From an uncultured Alphaproteobacteria bacterium (GTDB taxonomy: Bacteria; Pseudomonadota; Alphaproteobacteria; Micropepsales; Micropepsaceae): a DNA stretch of 62,153 nucleotides. The notes beneath the pieces are model-generated. The model was given only the letters and a program-made list of their open reading frames with translations. It did no database searches and was not told the origin of the DNA. A program made the translations under genes and the position numbers. Location: the NCBI GenBank assembly GCA_903857685.1, contig CAIOFO010000110.1, positions 1 to 62,153 of the forward strand. Reading direction: 5' to 3'. Shown in pieces: positions 1,516 to 28,198 of this stretch; position 1 is the first letter of the stretch, and every line of letters starts with the position of its first letter.

Positions 1516-1622
1516 GGGGGCCTCTCCCAACCGTATTGTTTCGCTGCCGGAAAGACAAAAATATAGCGGCGGCGGGAAGCGCGATCCAGTAAAATCAAGA
1601 ATAATAAAATCGGGGGACCAGC

Positions 1623-2885
1623 ATGGCAGGTGTGGCTTCAGGCGTGGACGAGCATCAGGGCCGCTGGTTCCAGCTCGTCATCGGCATCATCTGCATGGTG
1701 ATGATCGCCAATCTGCAATATGGCTGGAATCTCTTCGTCGATCCCATGTCGCACCAACAGCATTGGACACGCGCCACCATCGGCGCGGCCTTCAGCATGT
1801 TCGTGCTGGCCGAAACCTGGCTGGTGCCGGTGGAAAGCTGGTTTGTCGATCGCTTCGGTCCGCGCATCGTGGTGATGATCGGCGGCATCCTGGTGGCGCT
1901 GGGCTGGTCGCTTGATTCCGCCGCCGCCACGCTTCCTGTTCTTTACGCCGCGGCGATCATTTCCGGCATCGGTGCCGGCGCGGTTTACGGCACCTGTGTC
2001 GGCAATGCCCTGAAATGGTTTGTCGGACGGCGCGGTCTTGCCGCCGGCCTGACCGCGGCGGGTTTCGGCGCCGGCGCCGCCGCCACGGTGGTGCCCATCC
2101 AATATGTCATCGCGGCGCATGGCTATCAGTCGGCCTTTCTGTGGTTTGGGCTGGCCCAGGGCGGCGTGATCCTGATCGCCTCGCAATTCCTGCGCATGCC
2201 GGCCCACAAGCTGGCGGCGACGGTGCCGACGCCAAACATGCAGGCGGTTCGCAGCTTCAGCCCGCTGGAAGTGTTGAAGACGCCCATCTTCTGGGTGCTG
2301 TATGTGATGTTCGTGCTGGTTGCCTCCGGCGGCTTGATCGTCACCGCGCAATTCGCATCCATCGCCGCCGATTTCGGCGTCGCCAAGCAGCATATTGCGC
2401 TGATCGGCCTCACCGGCACGGTGCTGACGGTGGCGTTGATCATCGACAATGTCCTCAATGGGCTGGCGCGGCCATTCTTCGGCTGGATTTCCGACCGCAT
2501 CGGGCGCGAAGAAACCATGTTCATTGCCTTCATGCTGGCGGCGCTGGCGATCTGGTCGCTGTCCTATTACGGCCATGACCCTGTGATGTTCGTGGTCGCC
2601 AGCGGCGCGATCTATTTCACTTGGGGTGAAATCTACAGCCTGTTCCCATCCACCTGCACCGACACCTATGGCTTCAAATACGCCACCACCAATGCTGGCA
2701 TGCTGTACACTGCCAAGGGTACGGCGGCGGCTATCGCGGTGCCGACTTCCGCCCTCATTGCTGGCGCGGGAGATTGGCACAGCGTTTTGTGGATGGGCGC
2801 CATCGCCAATGTGGTGGTGGCGATCATGGCGATGGCGATCCTCAAGCCGATGCGCGCCGCCCAGCGGCGCAACGCGGGCGCATAG
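1623..2885 (+). CDS. MFS transporter, oxalate/formate antiporter (OFA)-like
   Basis: A 420-residue inner-membrane protein with about twelve hydrophobic segments, the usual MFS size. The motif-A-like loop DRFGPRIVVMIGG sits between helices 2 and 3, and a second copy, DRIGREETM, opens the C-terminal half. The pattern GIGAGAVYGTCVGNALKWF followed by RRGLAAGLTAAGFGAGAA is typical of the OxlT/OFA branch, which exchanges small dicarboxylates and monocarboxylates. The start ATG is preceded by a GGGGGA-type site. It lies between a divergent oxalyl-CoA-ligase-like gene and, 50 bp downstream on the same strand, the NRPS-like gene, so it could serve oxalate uptake or export of the downstream product. 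Transport direction is not readable from sequence. Confidence 0.85.
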   Translation: MAGVASGVDEHQGRWFQLVIGIICMVMIANLQYGWNLFVDPMSHQQHWTRATIGAAFSMFVLAETWLVPVESWFVDRFGPRIVVMIGGILVALGWSLDSAAATLPVLYAAAIISGIGAGAVYGTCVGNALKWFVGRRGLAAGLTAAGFGAGAAATVVPIQYVIAAHGYQSAFLWFGLAQGGVILIASQFLRMPAHKLAATVPTPNMQAVRSFSPLEVLKTPIFWVLYVMFVLVASGGLIVTAQFASIAADFGVAKQHIALIGLTGTVLTVALIIDNVLNGLARPFFGWISDRIGREETMFIAFMLAALAIWSLSYYGHDPVMFVVASGAIYFTWGEIYSLFPSTCTDTYGFKYATTNAGMLYTAKGTAAAIAVPTSALIAGAGDWHSVLWMGAIANVVVAIMAMAILKPMRAAQRRNAGA

Positions 2886-2935: not shown

Positions 2936-5900
2936 ATGAGCGGGCCGGAGCTGCTGCATGAAATTTTTTCCCAGGCCGCCCAGCGGTATCCCCGGCGTAT
3001 CGCCGTCCGCCTGGCGGAATCCGATCCCGAGACGTCACGCAAGTCCGAACTGACCTACTGGGAACTGCATGGCCGGGCCCGGCGCTTCGCCCACCATCTG
3101 GTCCTGCGCGGCGTGAAGCGCGGTGACCGGGTCGCGATTTGCCTGCCGCGCGGCCTTGATCAGTACATGGTGATACTGGGCATCCTGGAAGCGGGCGCCG
3201 CCTATGTTCCGGTGGATTGGCAGTCTCCCCAGAGCCGCGCAAATTATATCGCCGGGGAGTGCGCCGCAGCCGCGGTGGTGACAATTCAAAGCCGCAAGCA
3301 GGCATTTGCCGGCGCCGCGCGCACGGTGATTGCCGCCGATGCGGAACTGGGAGACATCGCCGCGCTGGAGCCGCTGCCGCCGGCAATGGCGCGGCCCCGG
3401 CCCGACGATCTGGCCTATGTCATTTACACGTCGGGGTCCACCGGGCGTCCCAAGGGCGTGATGATCCGCCATCGCAATATCGCCTTTCAGGTCCGTTCCG
3501 AAAGCGCCATCCTGCAACTGACCCGGGACGATGTCGTTTACGCCGGCGCCTCACTCGCATTCGACGTTTCCGTCGAGGAAATGTGGGCCGCATTCGGCGC
3601 GGGCGCGACGCTTCTGGTGGGGTCCGAGGCCCTGACAAAAGCCATCGATGAATTGCCGGCAATATTTGCGGTACATCGCGTCACTGTCTGGTGTCCGGTG
3701 CCTTCGCTGCTGGCGGCTATATCGCAGCCCTTGCCATCCTTGCGGATTCTCAATGTCGGCGGCGAACCTTGTCCCGATGCGCTGGTCGGCCGCTGGGCCG
3801 GTGGGTCCTGCATCATGATCAACACTTATGGTCCGACCGAAACCTCGGTCACCGCGACCTGGACGACGTTATTTCCCGGCCGCCCCGTCACCATCGGCAA
3901 GCCTTTGCCGGATTTTTTGGTGTGGGTGGTGGACGAAGCGCTTTCGCCGGTCCCGCCCGGTGCGGAAGGAGAGCTTCTGATCGGCGGTCCCGCCGTGGGG
4001 GCCGGTTATCTGAACGATCCGGAACGTACGGCGGCCAAGTTCGTCGCCTTGCCCGGAGAAAATGCCCCTGTCTATCGCACCGGCGATCTGGTGCGGATGA
4101 ACCGGGATGGCGAACTGGAATTTCTCGGACGGATTGACCTACAGGTCAAAATCCGGGGCTATCGTGTCGAGCTCGGGGAAATCGAATCCGTTCTGGCGCA
4201 CGATCCTTCCGTGGCACAAGCGGCGGTGAAATTATTCGGCGACCCGGAAGCGGGTCAGCTGCTGGCGGCTTTCGTCACGCCCCTGTCCGGCCGCGTCCTC
4301 GACCTTGATCGCTTGCGGCAGCTGGCGGCGCAATTGCCCGACTATATGCGGCCGCAAGCCTATTTGCCCCTGACGGAAATGCCGGTCCTGGTATCGGGGA
4401 AGATAAACCGGGATGCGCTCACGCGGCCGGCCGGCTTGGCGGCCGAGCAGCGCCGGGCGGTCGAAAAGCCGCAAGGCTCTCTGGAAGAAAAATTATGGGC
4501 AATCTGGAGCCAGGTCTTCACCCCCCAGGCCATTTCGGCCACGGATGACTTCTTTGAAGATTTGGGCGGTCACTCCCTGCGCGCCGCCCATATGGTGTCC
4601 CTGGCCAGGCAGGATCCGCAGCTGCGCGCCATCGCCATCCGCGATCTCTACGCTGCCCCCACCATCCGGAAATTGGCGGACCGACTGACGCATCAGCGCC
4701 ACGCCGGGCCATCGGCCGGCCTGCCGTTCCATCCTGTTCCACCCCGGCGCTATTTCTGTTGCGTGACGGCGCAGACCATTGCTGCCGGATTGATTTTCGC
4801 CTTTTCCGGCGCGCAATGGGTGTTTCCCTACCTAGTATACACCATCGTCGCGACGCCGGATCCCGCCAGCCGGGTGCCCGCGCTTGGCGCCGCGGTTCTG
4901 GTCTTTATGATCATGCCGCCGCTGATGCTGCTTTTCTCCATTATTGTAAAATGGGCCGTGATTGGGCGCTTCCGGCCGGGGAATTACCCGCTCTGGGGCG
5001 CCTACTATTTCCGCTGGTGGTTCGTGCGGCGCTTTCTGGCCGCGGTGCCGACAAATTTTCTGGCCGGAACGCCGATGCTGGCGGTCTATTTCCGGTTGCT
5101 GGGGGCAAAGCTGGGTCACTCGATCCTGCTGCAAACCAACAATATCGACGCGCCCGATCTGGTCACGATCGGCAAGGGCGCGAGCATCGGGCAAAACGCT
5201 TCACTGGCCAACACCGCGGTGGAAAACGGCCTGCTGCGGATTGGCCGCTGTAGCATCGGCGCGGACGCCGTTATCGGCACCATGGCGGTCGTGGGCCGCG
5301 ACGCTATTGTGGGCGACGGCGCGGTGCTGGAAGAATTGTCGGCCCTGCCGCCGGGCACCACCATGGCGGCCGGCGACAACTGGGCCGGATCGCCCGCCAT
5401 GCGCACCGGCCGCGCCGCGCCCCGTCGGGAAATACCGTCCCCCAGCCCGCTGCGGCGCATCGTGGTCACAGCCGGCCTGTTTCTGGCGGCGATCATCCTG
5501 CCGCTGATGGCGGTGCTGCCGATTGCGCCCGGCCTGATTGGCATGATTGAACTGGACTGGCTTACCGACAATTACAGCTATATCGCTTTGTCGCCGCTGC
5601 TGGCGGCCATCTATGTGCTGGCCATGTGCGCCATGACGATTTCCGTCAAATGGGCCCTGCTGGGCTGCGTCAGGCCCGGGCACTATTCGACCTGGAGCTG
5701 GTTTTACATCCGCTTCTGGAGCGTTCAAAAGCTGGGCGAGCTGGCGCTGGATCTGCTGCATCCGATATATGCGACGCTGTATATGCGCCCCTGGTACCGC
5801 GCGCTAGGCGCGTCGGTAGGCAAGCGTGCCGAAATTTCCACCGCCGCATCCGTGGTGCATGATCTTGTCGAAATCGGCGCCGAGAGCTTTATCGCCGATG

Positions 5901-24059: not shown

Positions 24060-24614
24060 ATGGACATGTTCAATCACGAAACTATGCGTCAAGTGGTGAA
24101 GAAAATCGGACTGGGCGCTGCCTTTGTTCTGGTGATCGCCTCGCCCGAAATCCTGCATGTTGCGATCGCCTCGCCGGCAGCCAAATCCGCACCCGCTGCC
24201 CAGGCGGCCAGCGCAAACACTTTTGTTCCCACCTGCAGCGCTAGCCAGGTTGTGGTGGATACCCGTCCCGATCCCGCCTGGGTCGGCGCCAGCTTCGCGC
24301 ATGACAATTGCTGGGCGCCCGCCATGCCCGCGCAGCTGAACGGCGCCACGGCCACCCGCGAACAGATCGTAGCCAGCATGGCGGCTGAGAAACGCTATGA
24401 CCTTCAGTCCGCCGCCTACCAGAAATGCATCAGTGATTATGTCGTCGCCCGCACGGCCGAGGCCGGCAAGGTCAAAAAGCCGATGGATGTGGCGCTGGTC
24501 ACCATCGAAGACCATCGCATCGCTGCCAGCGCGAACAACGAGAAAAAAGTTGCGGCCCTGACCGGAAACGCGATCGAGGCTTTCAACGAATTTGGCAGCC
24601 AGTGCGACGACTAG
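24060..24614 (+). CDS. secreted protein of unknown function
   Basis: 184 residues. An N-terminal hydrophobic segment (about 15-38, ending IASPA) acts as signal or anchor, followed by an Ala-rich linker. The mature domain has four cysteines (PTCSAS, DNCWAP, YQKCIS, GSQCDD) that could form two disulfides, and a charged helical C-terminal half (EKRYDLQSAAYQKCISDYVVAR). No family is recognised. It is divergent from the PCuAC gene and overlaps the next small gene. Confidence 0.65.
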   Translation: MDMFNHETMRQVVKKIGLGAAFVLVIASPEILHVAIASPAAKSAPAAQAASANTFVPTCSASQVVVDTRPDPAWVGASFAHDNCWAPAMPAQLNGATATREQIVASMAAEKRYDLQSAAYQKCISDYVVARTAEAGKVKKPMDVALVTIEDHRIAASANNEKKVAALTGNAIEAFNEFGSQCDD

Positions 24615-24888
24615 CTTGAGGCGGGGCTGCAGCGGCTTGCGTCTTTCGGGGCGTGTCCTGGCCATTGCCGCTATTGCCTCGGCGCTGACAGCGCCGTGCG
24701 CGTTCAGCCAGATTGCCACTCCCAGCTTGTCGCTGCCGCCATGCACCGGGCCGCGGTGCCTGGTTCACCAGCGGGGCGCCACGGCCCCGCGCGTTGCCGC
24801 ACCGTCTGCCGTCAAACAGTCCTGTCCCCAGGGCACTGTATTTGACGCTTATAAAGGTGTGTGCCGGGTCATGCCCCTTGCCCGCTAA
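24592..24888 (+). CDS. small secreted cysteine-containing protein, unknown
   Basis: About 98 residues from TTG 24592, overlapping the previous gene by 23 bp. An internal TTG at 24616 is an alternative start. A signal-like hydrophobic segment (LAIAAIASALTAPCAFSQ) precedes a Pro/Ala-rich mature part with four cysteines, ending in SCPQGTVFDAYKGVCRV. That last motif resembles short disulfide-bonded carbohydrate-binding modules, but the match is too short to assign. The coupled overlap suggests a functional pair with the preceding secreted protein. Confidence 0.5.
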   Translation: MAASATTSLRRGCSGLRLSGRVLAIAAIASALTAPCAFSQIATPSLSLPPCTGPRCLVHQRGATAPRVAAPSAVKQSCPQGTVFDAYKGVCRVMPLAR

Positions 24889-25160
24889 GATGATGAATTT
24901 GCGCGGCTACCCGCCGTTCGGGCATCTTAAATAGGCAGATATTGCCTGGTTTTCCCCCCGCAGCTTGTAAAATCGGGGTTTTGAGCCTACATAAGGTCTT
25001 GCGTGGTTCTTGCGTCTTAGTCAGGCGAAGCGCTTCTGTCTTTCTGACCCGCTTCCAGCGCGCCGGACGAACCGAAAAACTTCCTTAGGCCCCGATGTTC
25101 TCGTTTCCACGACCGTCTGTGCATATCGCACAGCGGAACATTACGACTAAGGAAAATACA

Positions 25161-25364
25161 ATGACGATCGGTACCGTGAAGTTTTTCAATTCCAGCAAGG
25201 GCTTTGGTTTCATCTCGCCGGACGGCGGCGGCAAGGACGTGTTCGTCCATGCCTCGGCTCTCGAAGCGGCGGGCATGCGTACGCTTGCGGAAGGCCAGAA
25301 GGTTTCCTTCGACATCCAGCCGGATGCCAAGGGCTCGAAGGCTGCCAATCTGCAGTCGGTTTAA
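25161..25364 (+). CDS. cold-shock domain protein (CspA-like)
   Basis: A 67-residue single cold-shock domain ([17 protein letters not shown]). RNA-binding motifs RNP1 (KGFGFI) and RNP2 (VFVHAS) are intact, so it binds single-stranded RNA or DNA as a chaperone. I chose ATG 25161, with AAGGAAAA 6 bases upstream, over longer frames that would prepend an implausible Arg/Ser tail. The 270 bp upstream are gene-free and could be a long cold-shock leader. Earlier in it (24956-24982) is a weak hairpin CCCCG...CGGGG followed by TTTT. Confidence 0.93.
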
Positions 25365-25697: not shown

Positions 25698-26861
25698 TCA
25701 GTCCGGTTCCTTTCGCATCGCCGCGAACAGCCCCGTCACCTCATTGCCGTATTCCATCCGCAGATATCCCTCATCCAGCCGCAGCAATCGCATGTCCGCG
25801 CCGGCCGCCAGGTCGGCGATATGGTCCTTGTGGTGGGCATAACGGCCGGAATCCGTCAGTTGATAGGGATGTACCCCGCCGCGTTCGACGGAAAAGGCCA
25901 GCACGCCATTTTCCTTCAGCCGGCTCCTGGCGGCACGGAGCACCGGCGCCAGATCGCCGAAATAAATCAGCGTGTCGCAGGCAACGATCAGGTCATAACG
26001 CTTCTGGCAATCCGCCAGCCAACCCGTGATCTCCGCAACTTCCAGGTGATCGTATATGGCGCGGGCACGAGCGTGCTCAACCATCTCCGGCGAAAGATCC
26101 ACGCCCGTAAGCTGGGCCGCCCGCGGCCTCAGCCGCAGGCCCGACAGGCCCGTGCCGCATCCCAGGTCCAGCACCTCGAGGCCGCCCTGGTCCCCCATCA
26201 CCGCCTGGATCAGTTCGCCCAGCCGTTCGGGCGCCTGATAGTCCAGCGTGTCCACCATGTTGCTTTCATAGAAAGCGGAAAACTTCTTGTAGAGCTGCTG
26301 GATGCAGGCATCGGGAACGCGGGCAGGGGGCGCTTCGTCGCGCAAGGCGGTCAGGATGTGCCGGACTTCGGCGTCCTGCGGGTTGCTCTGGAGATACTTT
26401 TCATAGCCCGCGCGGGCCTGGGCCCGCTGCCCCACGATATGGGCCAGCTCGGCCATGGCGCACCAGGCCTCCGCGTCGTCCGGCGTCAATTCGGTCGCCC
26501 GCCGGGCGCACAGATAGGCTGTCTGGATCTTGCCATAGTCGCGCAAATGCGAAGCCAGGCTGGACAAATCGGCGGCACCCATCACTTTGCCTTCACCACT
26601 TACGCCATCGTCCTGGACCAACAGCCCGGCGGCGATGGCACCTTCAATCCATTTGTCGATTTCCCCGATGCTGTCTTCGGGCACGAAGGGCTGAGCAATC
26701 GCGCGCACCGCCGCGATAGTGCGCTCGCCATTGCACAATTCGGCAATCAGGGCCGCCACCGGGTTGAGTTCATGCAGCCGGTCCTGCGCCGTATCATAGG
26801 CGATGTAGCCGGTCTCGACCGGCGACAGCAGGATATTGGGGTTCAGTCTGGGGTTGGTCAT
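25698..26861 (-). CDS. PqqD-like (RRE) - TPR - class I SAM methyltransferase fusion
   Basis: A 387-residue cytoplasmic protein with three parts. Residues 1-88 resemble PqqD: LLSPVETGYIAYDTAQDRLH, ELNPVAALIAELCNGERT, then a helical end with IDKWIEGAIAAGLLV. PqqD folds are RiPP recognition elements that bind leader peptides. Residues about 95-170 are TPR-like helices (AYLCARRATELTPDDAEAW, AQARAGYEKYLQSNPQDAE). Residues about 190-387 are a SAM methyltransferase with motif I VLDLGCGTGLSG, TGVDLSPEM, DLIVACDTLIYFGDL and LKENGVLAFSVE. Immediately upstream on the same strand (95 bp) is a Tat-leader Gly-Lys-repeat peptide. Leader binding and methylation of that peptide are inferred from architecture and order. 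Confidence 0.85.
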   Translation of the reverse strand: MTNPRLNPNILLSPVETGYIAYDTAQDRLHELNPVAALIAELCNGERTIAAVRAIAQPFVPEDSIGEIDKWIEGAIAAGLLVQDDGVSGEGKVMGAADLSSLASHLRDYGKIQTAYLCARRATELTPDDAEAWCAMAELAHIVGQRAQARAGYEKYLQSNPQDAEVRHILTALRDEAPPARVPDACIQQLYKKFSAFYESNMVDTLDYQAPERLGELIQAVMGDQGGLEVLDLGCGTGLSGLRLRPRAAQLTGVDLSPEMVEHARARAIYDHLEVAEITGWLADCQKRYDLIVACDTLIYFGDLAPVLRAARSRLKENGVLAFSVERGGVHPYQLTDSGRYAHHKDHIADLAAGADMRLLRLDEGYLRMEYGNEVTGLFAAMRKEPD

Positions 26862-26956
26862 GGCGGCTGAGATAAAAACAGGCGGCCGCGCAATAATGGC
26901 ACGACCGCCTGTTCAGATGACTATGATTGCTTTGGGGTCTAAGCCCAAAGTGACAA

Positions 26957-27193
26957 TTACATTCCGCCGCCGGCGTCGCCCTTGCCTTTACCTTTACCCT
27001 TGCCCTTGCCTTTGCCTTTACCCTTGCCGTCACCCATGTCGCCGCCCGCTTCCTGGGCGACCGCCACGGAGGTCATCATCGGAACCGCAACGGCAACCGC
27101 CGAACCGATCACGAGGGTCTTGAAAAATCCACGCCGGTTCTGGTCGATATGGGTAAGTGCATTCAACGCATCGTCAATTTTCTTGTTAGACAC
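26957..27193 (-). CDS. Tat-signal peptide with eight Gly-Lys repeats, candidate modified-peptide precursor
   Basis: 78 residues from GTG 27193, supported by GGGAGG 7 bases upstream. Residues 1-18 are a polar leader (MSNKKIDDALNALTHIDQ). Then come the twin-arginine motif NRRGFFK, a hydrophobic segment and a likely cleavage after SVAVA (about residue 46). The remainder is QEAGGDMGDG, then lysine alternating with glycine eight times, then DAGGGM. The coding DNA is a tandem array using both AAA/AAG and mixed Gly codons, so it is not a recent slippage product. The small exported peptide precedes a PqqD-containing methyltransferase, as precursors do in RiPP loci. The unmodified alternative is a metal- or polyanion-binding exported peptide. 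Confidence 0.8.
   Translation of the reverse strand: MSNKKIDDALNALTHIDQNRRGFFKTLVIGSAVAVAVPMMTSVAVAQEAGGDMGDGKGKGKGKGKGKGKGKGDAGGGM
26963..27025. repeat. 6-bp-type tandem repeat encoding (Gly-Lys)8
   Basis: Tandem hexamer-like units read on the minus strand as GGC/GGT plus AAG/AAA. Eight lysine codons alternate with glycine codons between Asp-rich flanks. Synonymous variation between units (ctt/ttt and gcc/acc on the plus strand) shows selection on the protein rather than a pure DNA repeat. Confidence 0.85.
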
Positions 27194-27284
27194 AAACGCC
27201 TCCCTATTGTTGATGGCGCGAGTATGCCCAAGGCCTCGTCCAGCGCCTCGGCCCTCTGCATGAATTTTTCGTAACCCCCCGAAA

Positions 27285-27402: not shown

Positions 27403-27972
27403 CTATTCCATAATGAGCGAAACATCAGCGGCGATATCGCCCTTGGTCCCATCGCCCAATCTCACCGAGACGTTCTGACCTTCCCGCAGCTCCGCGATGC
27501 CGCAGCGCCGCAGCGTCTCCATGTGAACAAAGATGTCCGGGGTGCCGGTTCCACGTGAGGCAAAGCCATAACCCTTGGCGCGATTGAACCATTTGACGAC
27601 CGCCACGAAGGCCGGACCGCGCGCTTCGGCGGTACAGCGGTTATGCCGCCCGGTGACGGCTGGCAGGGCCTGAGCGGAGGAATTGTCCAGGGAGATGACT
27701 TTTGTCGCCTGTAGCCCGCGTGGGCCAGGCACGGCTTCGCACACAACCGTTGCGCCTTCCCGGATGGTCTTGAAGCCGGAATGCCGTACGCAGCTTTGGT
27801 GCAATAAAATGTCGGCATCGCCGTCCAACGGTTTCACGAAACCATAGCCCTTGGCGCTGTCGAACCATTTGACGTGACCGGTGACGGTACGGGCGTCTGG
27901 CTCGTTCATGATTGCGCTCGGATTGCCGGCACCCATGCGCGAAGGCGGCGATAGGTACTCGCTCTGCCTCAT
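27403..27972 (-). CDS. dual cold-shock-domain protein
   Basis: 189 residues from ATG 27972 (GGGGAAAA 5 bases upstream). ATG 27909 is a shorter alternative. Two cold-shock domains occur in tandem: the first with [17 protein letters not shown] and the RNP2-like DILLHQS, the second with [17 protein letters not shown] and DIFVHME. A linker of about 45 residues joins them. This two-domain layout is common in alphaproteobacteria, where such proteins act in stationary-phase or stress RNA control. It is separate from the single-domain cold-shock gene 2 kb away. Confidence 0.9.
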
Positions 27973-28198
27973 CAATTTTCCCCGATTCAATGGCGGGAAG
28001 ACACTTTCCCGCTTCTGTTATTTTGTAGGGACAAGGCTATTGGATTTGTATGAAACTGTATGTTCCCCGCATGGAAATGGCTGTTCCGATAATGGAACGC
28101 CCGCATTTTCGGCAAATTGGGAATTTTGCGCGCACCGAGCCAGACCGCCGGGAGACAATGTCCGGCGACGGCGGCAGATTTTGGAGGTGTGGCGAAGT

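Follow-up and report, generated by a model that had tools for sequence, protein, structure and literature searches.

Can a twin-arginine translocation (Tat) signal also serve as the leader by which a modifying enzyme recognises its peptide? The question is raised by a two-gene locus on contig CAIOFO010000110.1 (GCA_903857685.1) of an uncultured alphaproteobacterium of the family Micropepsaceae, of which the whole stretch of 62,153 nucleotides (hereafter the window) was analysed. A 78-residue peptide with the motif NRRGFFK, a hydrophobic export signal and eight Gly-Lys repeats is encoded 95 bp ahead of the ATG of a gene whose product combines a PqqD-like domain, a tetratricopeptide repeat (TPR) region and an S-adenosylmethionine (SAM) methyltransferase. 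An earlier, initial annotation had given the coordinates, layout and spacing of these two open reading frames (ORFs) correctly and had omitted that both lie on the minus strand. We propose, with a probability of about 0.6, that the locus encodes peptide modification guided by the recognition element (RRE) of ribosomally synthesised and post-translationally modified peptide (RiPP) systems, the Tat signal acting as the leader and the tail being methylated, most likely on lysine, before Tat export.

RiPP leaders are normally not export signals, and the Tat route carries proteins already folded or matured in the cytoplasm. According to our proposal the peptide would be made in excess, an intergenic hairpin limiting expression of the enzyme, and its N-terminal region, also its Tat signal, would be bound in the cytoplasm by the PqqD-type domain. 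The fused TPR-methyltransferase would then methylate the low-complexity tail, most likely at lysine side chains, and the peptide would be released to the Tat translocon, its modified tail ending outside the cytoplasm. If true, a Tat signal doubling as an RRE leader couples modification to Tat export, and a function is suggested both for a subfamily of TPR-methyltransferases and for loci with HprK-like and PqqD genes. The reading predicts exported methyl-lysine polypeptides.

Conservation of the peptide-enzyme pair

A sample of 96 genomes of the order was searched with an enzyme profile and a peptide-leader profile. The enzyme profile matched 85 of these genomes at E<=1e-25, the five described below included, and the full-length PqqD-TPR-methyltransferase was present in five (G000, G008, G096, G067 and G063). 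The leader profile matched the same five (E 6.9e-28 to 2.4e-21, the next match at 6.3e-5), whose peptides were also its seed; ten weaker matches sit in open frames of 65 to 898 amino acids. The two genes thus co-occur in relatives, as the initial annotation had expected: both are found in 5 of the 96 genomes and neither in the other 91 (Fisher p 1.6e-8, kinship ignored), with the peptide gene directly upstream of the enzyme gene on the same strand in all five. Two of the five are metagenome-assembled genomes deposited as 'Alphaproteobacteria bacterium' (JAFAVT010000077.1 for G008 and JAICHV010000003.1 for G096). A genome-contig search with the two proteins together retrieved loci L071 and L072, and with a single protein it gave no match. 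Apart from the window's, no full-length PqqD-TPR-methyltransferase was found in 385 genomes of the class (E<=1e-60) or 180 of the phylum (E<=1e-55), and tblastn of the window peptide against plasmids and phages gave no match.

Neighbourhoods were compared by blastp over 20 kb for the window, 19 kb for G008, 17 kb for G096, 16 kb for G067 and 5.4 kb for G063. The enzyme was common to all five loci and the peptide to three, the window and G008 peptides having been dropped from this comparison by greedy ORF choice; the only other sharing was synteny between G067 and G063 and a single TPR-type match linking G067 with G096. Conservation of the pair in mostly differing neighbourhoods is a reason to favour RRE-guided modification. 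We consider the linkage of peptide and enzyme well supported, and because the peptide occurs together with an enzyme that has a domain of the peptide-recognising type and a methyltransferase domain, this enzyme probably decorates it before export.

The window peptide, MSNKKIDDALNALTHIDQNRRGFFKTLVIGSAVAVAVPMMTSVAVAQEAGGDMGDGKGKGKGKGKGKGKGKGDAGGGM, starts from a GTG codon at 27193 preceded by a GGGAGG motif resembling a ribosome-binding site (27204-27199). NRRGFFK is followed by a hydrophobic stretch and by A-V-A-Q, judged by eye a suitable signal peptidase I site at which the leader may be cleaved, and then by the tail, whose 31 residues include 8 Lys and 4 that are acidic; the peptide as translated lacks Cys. 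The Gly-Lys codons are mixed (GGC/GGT and AAA/AAG), and therefore the repeat is not one identical hexamer copied over. A twin-arginine motif and a hydrophobic stretch are seen in all five homologues, the leaders of which align well. Their tails diverge yet stay Lys-rich, being (GK)8 in the window and containing GKCDDGLIVSKKTGKCKAIKK, GKCDDGLVVSKKTGKCAAPRKKK, EEGKKKKKKKKEGE and GEGKKKKKKKKKEGEE in the others. With a small putative precursor gene next to that of a predicted modifying enzyme, a conserved leader and a variable core, the pair shows an arrangement by which RiPP systems are recognised. An alternative assignment of the peptide to the formate-dehydrogenase-region Tat targets (TIGR02811) was rejected, as matches were weak (18.3 bits for the window peptide and 24.4 for the best homologue, against a cut-off of 48.45).

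All five pairs also carry a strong hairpin between the two genes, with z-scores of -4.9, -3.9, -6.6, -5.3 and -4.9 against 200 shuffles each, none of which was as good in any pair. It is plausible that the hairpin causes partial termination and so holds the peptide in excess over the enzyme. A consensus terminator scan did not list the window hairpin, and a sigma-70-type promoter scan found no promoter.

The recognition domain and a wider group of Tat-leader loci

The Pfam PqqD model (PF05402, cut-off 23.4 bits) scores the whole enzyme below threshold (21.2) and residues 1-90 alone above it (24.1); it matched all five family enzymes at E<=1, the best at 2e-6. Residues 1-90 were modelled alone from three sequences (window, L071 and L072), giving a mean predicted local distance difference test (pLDDT) score of 82.7 and a small strand, three further strands and then three helices. 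The fold search was run on this model only, since the full-length model is too poor in its methyltransferase part. Foldseek against the PDB returned as top match the leader-bound lasso B1 protein TfuB1 (6jx3, E 3e-4, template modelling score 0.72), followed by TbiB1 (5v1u and 5v1v), the RRE of PbtF and TruD, 6jx3 being the only match with E <0.001. With VIA-align the domain reached Z 9-10 to MibB, TigE, NisB and TbiB1, as well as 9.7 to Rv2067c and 8.0 to PKMT2 of Rickettsia, both of them lysine methyltransferases in which a winged-helix domain of similar kind is present; a Z of about 8 can arise by chance, and both match lists are compatible with other folds. Residues 1-90 are accordingly predicted to adopt the three-strand, three-helix winged-helix PqqD/RRE fold, which was the outcome a check set in advance had required of the PqqD-like N-terminus claimed by the initial annotation. 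Likeness of fold to RREs does not by itself establish function. The C-terminal SAM methyltransferase claimed alongside it is likewise upheld by Pfam scores above cut-off and by SAM motif I, VLDLGCGTGLSG, at residues 230-241; this motif and many other methyltransferase residues are invariant across the five enzymes.

Beyond the pair, we aligned a second set of Tat leaders, seeded from loci next to TPR-methyltransferase, HprK-like or PqqD genes, of the form RRxALxxLG..A..xYxAP, in which R, R, L, L, G, Y and P are invariant in 14 sequences. The invariant YxxP is the RRE recognition motif reported for lasso peptides; excerpts from PMC12710340 give YxxP for these and W/Y/LxxP/L/I for groups including PqqD. 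Leaders were detected by profiles, a first regular expression having failed to recover even the five already known. A generic Tat detector gave noisy output, flagging 12 of 50 plain TPR-methyltransferase rows and 22 of 59 PqqD loci; on inspection by eye most of these were membrane or antisense ORFs, and one (L197) was genuine.

The wider leader profile was positive in 22 of 289 genomes of the class. A PqqD match was present in 21 of these 22 and in 66 of the 267 leader-negative genomes (p 3e-11), and with the seven seed genomes left out in 14 of 15 (p 1e-7); the leader and PqqD searches each drew 289 genomes, taken as the same draw since their handles agree. Among 24 leader clusters, 14 had an HprK-like gene, 11 a PqqD gene and 3 a TPR-methyltransferase, and 9 had none of these in the fetched stretch. 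Eight of the clusters are seeds; the other 16 comprise 7 with HprK, 6 with PqqD and 9 without any of the three. The HprK frame begins no more than about 150 bp downstream of the leader frame in 14 leader loci. Outside the seed set, plasmid pcSHIWSC3 of Shinella sp. WSC3-e encodes an HprK-PqqD fusion annotated 'PqqD family protein', preceded by an 86-residue 'hypothetical protein' with the same wider leader (E 5e-15) and an S/R-rich tail, and a second Shinella record carries the same genes.

HprK homologues phosphorylate lasso precursors. The occurrence of Tat-leader peptides beside kinase-type partners points to a family of exported and modified peptides that has not been described. We would give even odds to a broad class in Alphaproteobacteria in which the Tat signal is the leader and a PqqD/RRE domain recruits, before Tat export, either TPR-methyltransferases (Lys/Arg tails) or HprK-like kinases (Ser/Thr tails). 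That the PqqD/RRE domains of such a class would be free or fused, its wider leader RR...YxxP and its tailoring enzymes interchangeable could equally well prove right or wrong, and the balance is just as even for the view that the window RRE-methyltransferase and the HprK-PqqD fusion of pcSHIWSC3 would be two fused forms revealing its logic.

A Tat peptide does not accompany PqqD at every locus, as the leader occurs in only 2 of 60 PqqD loci (our own PqqD profile is narrow and found 25 of the 60). Of 15 loci with profile-found HprK and PqqD, 13 lack the Tat leader; some of these, a set that includes L141, L143 and L158, have small ORFs upstream of HprK that look lasso-like by eye. Judged from these gene arrangements, lasso and Tat-leader systems may have the HprK/PqqD module in common. 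At nine leader loci (L239, L241, L243, L244, L245, L247, L248, L251 and L254) HprK, TPR-methyltransferase and PqqD are all absent from the fetched stretch; most of their tails are Gly/Pro/Cys-rich with few Lys, and other partner enzymes may serve them. At L040 (G051:C10) the gene of a TPR protein (1602-2765, plus strand) has that of a Tat-leader peptide on one side and an HprK-like gene on the other; the C-terminal half of the protein presumably resembles a 2-oxoglutarate/Fe(II) oxygenase, and the protein is a possible third tailoring enzyme. On the Shinella plasmid L267, the frame of an S8 family serine peptidase upstream of the peptide (3040-4377, plus strand) itself matches the leader profile (E 1.4e-8), and its product is perhaps a leader-bearing processing protease.

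The modified residue and alternative readings

Tail composition differs with the partner enzyme. Mean Lys plus Arg (K+R) and Ser plus Thr (S+T) fractions are 0.40 and 0.05 beside a TPR-methyltransferase without HprK (7 loci, 9 peptides), 0.19 and 0.20 beside HprK without a TPR-methyltransferase (12 loci, 15 peptides), 0.10 and 0.12 beside neither (9 loci, 11 peptides) and 0.19 and 0.19 beside both (4 loci, 5 peptides). Methyltransferase-only tails are higher in K+R (p 0.005) and lower in S+T (p 0.001) than HprK-only tails, and differ from those beside neither enzyme with p 0.001 for K+R and 0.056 for S+T; descent makes these loci non-independent, and the methyltransferase-only group consists of two lineages (the pair clade and family f104). 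Two frames were left out (L235 6562-6693, with no tail in frame, and L256 5571-5936, with no RR in frame), and the probably frameshifted L256 5093-5890 was kept in the group with both enzymes, which entered no test.

Lysine is our best guess for the methylation target, because the side chains with a plausible methyl acceptor that recur in every one of the five pair tails are limited to Lys and acidic residues. The interpretation in the initial annotation, that the enzyme binds the leader and methylates lysines or termini before export, is borne out in part: co-occurrence and fold favour it, the peptide N-terminus is an unlikely target because it would become accessible only once the signal has been removed, outside the cytoplasm, and the wider Tat-leader group had been overlooked. 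The same shared side chains leave room for the pair to be substrate and enzyme with the methyl group placed instead on Asp or Glu, as esters and possibly with further chemistry, or on the C-terminal carboxylate, and a methyltransferase domain that matches general families only would accommodate this. We regard it as unlikely, since Lys is dominant and repeated in the window tail and the tails on the methyltransferase side stand out across loci in K+R.

The TPR-methyltransferases without PqqD, which we take to be COG4976-like, bear on both the proposal and its next alternative. The nearest ones outside the order occupy eight loci, matched without the PqqD region, and small Tat-leader proteins adjoin six of them (G051, G299, G465, G388, G303 and G469), with tails such as CGKGKGKGHCPSGPSRPS or RGRRRRRCKKKKKKKKKK; none was found beside the enzymes of G187 and G198. 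Five of the eight have the peptide within 1.5 kb, and in G051 about 0.4 kb separates the peptide from another TPR-methyltransferase of the same contig. By comparison, none of 41 plain TPR-methyltransferase loci (distinct loci from 50 rows, nine rows being repeats of the same locus; 3 of the 41 outside the order) has a Tat-leader peptide, HprK or PqqD in flanks of 1.5 kb or less. For Tat-peptide linkage the comparison gives p 3e-5 with equal flanks (5/8 versus 0/41) and p 2e-6 with the wider stretches for the eight (6/8 versus 0/41), and these plain loci rule out that all TPR-methyltransferases pair with Tat peptides. No Tat peptide was found either at L028 and L260, which have flanks of about 6 kb and are not among the 41, or at five plasmid TPR-methyltransferase loci (four Azospirillaceae and one Thiodictyon). 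Matches in Variovorax were TPR-methyltransferases without PqqD. In a tree of 56 TPR-methyltransferase sequences (IQ-TREE quick, midpoint root), the five pair enzymes form one clade with a Shimodaira-Hasegawa-like approximate likelihood ratio test support of 100, outside a clade of 39 plain enzymes (99). The pair clade falls on the Tat-linked side, a weak grouping (72) in which three plain rows with long branches are also placed. Judged by this tree, local duplication of a plain copy and addition of a PqqD domain do not appear to have given rise to the pair enzyme.

The PqqD-like domain could instead be a chaperone that holds the Tat signal peptide until export, the methyltransferase acting elsewhere or being inactive. 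The leader is indeed the conserved part of the peptide, TPR regions are common protein-binding scaffolds, and TPR-methyltransferases without PqqD occur without a Tat peptide at the 41 plain loci. This reading is rather improbable to us given the invariance of the SAM motif and of many methyltransferase residues in all five enzymes, and given that methyltransferases without PqqD still adjoin Tat peptides in six of the eight loci outside the order. Very unlikely is an unmodified polycationic low-complexity protein, exported and co-transcribed by chance with an unrelated methyltransferase: such tails alone could serve as surface polycations, but the predicted RRE fold and the parallel Tat-peptide/PqqD/HprK loci argue against it, as does the fact that the two genes co-occur exactly, in 5 of the 96 genomes and among mostly differing neighbours.

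Several observations weigh against RRE-guided lysine methylation before Tat export. The methyltransferase domain matches only general families (Methyltransf_23, BchM, BioC and NodS) and no protein-lysine methyltransferase family, and the full-length enzyme model is poor (pLDDT 63.5, often <50 in the methyltransferase part). The five pair enzymes form one clade and hence do not count as independent occurrences. The curated Tat-signal model TIGR01409 (cut-off 16.7 bits) accepts one of the five peptides, that of G063 (21.7 bits); the window (14.5) and G067 (13.8) peptides fall below, and those of G008 and G096 have no match at E<=0.1. TatC, the presence of which in four of the five genomes favours the proposal, has no match in G063, a genome 86% complete. 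The tail of the second peptide of G303, which lies beside a TPR-methyltransferase, contains Arg but lacks Lys, and lysine is therefore not the target of every TPR-methyltransferase. The pair leaders keep the Pro and not the Tyr of the wider YxxP, and hhalign of the two leader families (probability 59%, E 9e-5, 24 columns) does not separate homology from shared Tat features. On this alignment any kinship between the two leader families is doubtful, and the pair may, again doubtfully, be a fused, methyltransferase-type relative of the wider Tat-leader peptide group with its PqqD, HprK-like or TPR-methyltransferase partners.

Known systems and neighbouring genes

The closest parallel in the literature is provided by the bufferins, RiPPs modified by MNIO enzymes and bearing Sec signal peptides, which the main text of PMC12452194 describes as highly unusual; its authors speculate that a partner protein masks the signal until modification is complete. 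Bufferins resemble the window pair in having an export signal in place of a RiPP leader and an RRE-type domain fused to a partner, and differ in that the signal is of the Sec type, Cys is oxidised by a multinuclear iron enzyme and the RRE is fused to DUF2063 (main text of PMC12452194). 'Tat', 'twin-arginine' and 'methyltransferase' have no occurrence in that main text. The window pair does not belong with them, as the peptide has no Cys and the enzyme, within its 25 best Pfam rows, matches methyltransferases and not MNIO.

Lasso B1 and other PqqD-family RREs (TfuB1, TbiB1) are the best matches to the predicted fold of window residues 1-90, and the window leader differs from the YxxP leaders of the lasso type in lacking Tyr. 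The ORFs neighbouring the pair, read by eye with no search aimed at such genes, included neither a recognisable lasso cyclase gene nor a B2 gene. HPr-rel-A systems (TIGR04352 HprK_rel_A and TIGR04353 PqqD_rel_X) combine a PqqD protein with an HprK-like kinase, and some of their loci in Alphaproteobacteria carry low-complexity peptides with Tat leaders; the window differs in having a methyltransferase and no kinase within 62 kb. The HprK and PqqD proteins scanned score below the NCBIfam cut-offs (best 43.3 versus 200 and 20.8 versus 35 bits), and the open-access literature searched contains no mention of the HPr-rel-A family names. Plain TPR-methyltransferases share the TPR and methyltransferase domains of the window enzyme and, unlike it, have neither PqqD nor a nearby Tat peptide (41 of 41 loci). 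Lysines of surface or other proteins are methylated, as proposed here for the tail, by the outer-membrane protein lysine methyltransferases KmtA/PKMT, KmtA acting on many lysines of the surface protein AtaA (excerpts from PMC11784438), and by Rv2067c (excerpts from PMC10739865). The winged-helix domains of PKMT2 and Rv2067c match window residues 1-90 in fold (Z 8.0 and 9.7, of which values near 8 may be chance). We know of no small Tat peptide partner for KmtA/PKMT or Rv2067c.

RREs near methyltransferases are already known, since the main text of a 2025 RRE survey, in which 'methyltransferase' appears once, reports an RRE near a predicted methyltransferase in Streptomyces actuosus; 'kinase' and 'twin-arginine' are absent from that main text. 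Among the matches listed, the open-access literature held no description of Tat-leader RiPPs or of such RRE-methyltransferase fusions in the text available, subscription journals and preprints outside PMC being beyond its scope. What appears to be new within RRE-guided peptide systems, as read from the sequences, is the leader type and the fusion, the chemistry being predicted.

The features of the locus are collected in Table 1. A scan of the 62-kb window with our own profiles found one PqqD, one TPR-methyltransferase and one leader, all belonging to the pair, and HprK was found neither in the window nor in the other four pair stretches (5.4 to 19 kb).

Table 1 Features of the peptide-enzyme locus in the window
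Feature	Coordinates	Strand	Remarks
PqqD-TPR-methyltransferase gene	25698..26861	-	387 aa
PqqD/RRE domain (predicted), residues 1-90	26592..26861	-	Pfam PqqD 24.1 bits alone; pLDDT 82.7; Foldseek 6jx3 TM 0.72
TPR region, ~residues 97-173	26343..26573	-	Pfam TPR_17/TPR_14 above cut-off; helices in model
Class I SAM methyltransferase domain, ~residues 185-387	25701..26309	-	Methyltransf_23/12/25 above cut-off
Intergenic hairpin, attenuator/terminator-like	26876..26914	-	16-bp stem, 7-nt loop, then U-rich; z -4.9
Precursor peptide gene (putative)	26957..27193	-	78 aa, GTG start, stop included; homologues in 4 other genomes
Core/tail, residues 48-78, eight Gly-Lys repeats	26960..27052	-	Divergent but Lys-rich across five homologues
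Leader/Tat signal region, residues 1-47, MSNKKIDDALNALTHIDQNRRGFFKTLVIGSAVAVAVPMMTSVAVAQ	27053..27193	-	Conserved in five-peptide leader alignment
Ribosome-binding-site-like GGGAGG	27199..27204	-	5 nt ahead of GTG; read from sequence

In the window the pair is flanked by cold-shock-domain-like genes, one of them with two domains (25095-25364, plus strand, and 27403-27990, minus strand), which by neighbourhood blastp are not common to the other pair loci. Further along, a 98-residue ORF with a TTG start (24592-24888, plus strand) has a hydrophobic N-terminal part and a C-terminal CPQGTVFDAYKGVC, and resembles a small exported protein. In G067 (L109 3938-7798, plus strand) and G063 (L108 4354-5436, minus strand), similar genes lie convergent to the pair enzyme, and their products presumably resemble a TPR-containing protein of the O-GlcNAc-transferase type (SPINDLY).

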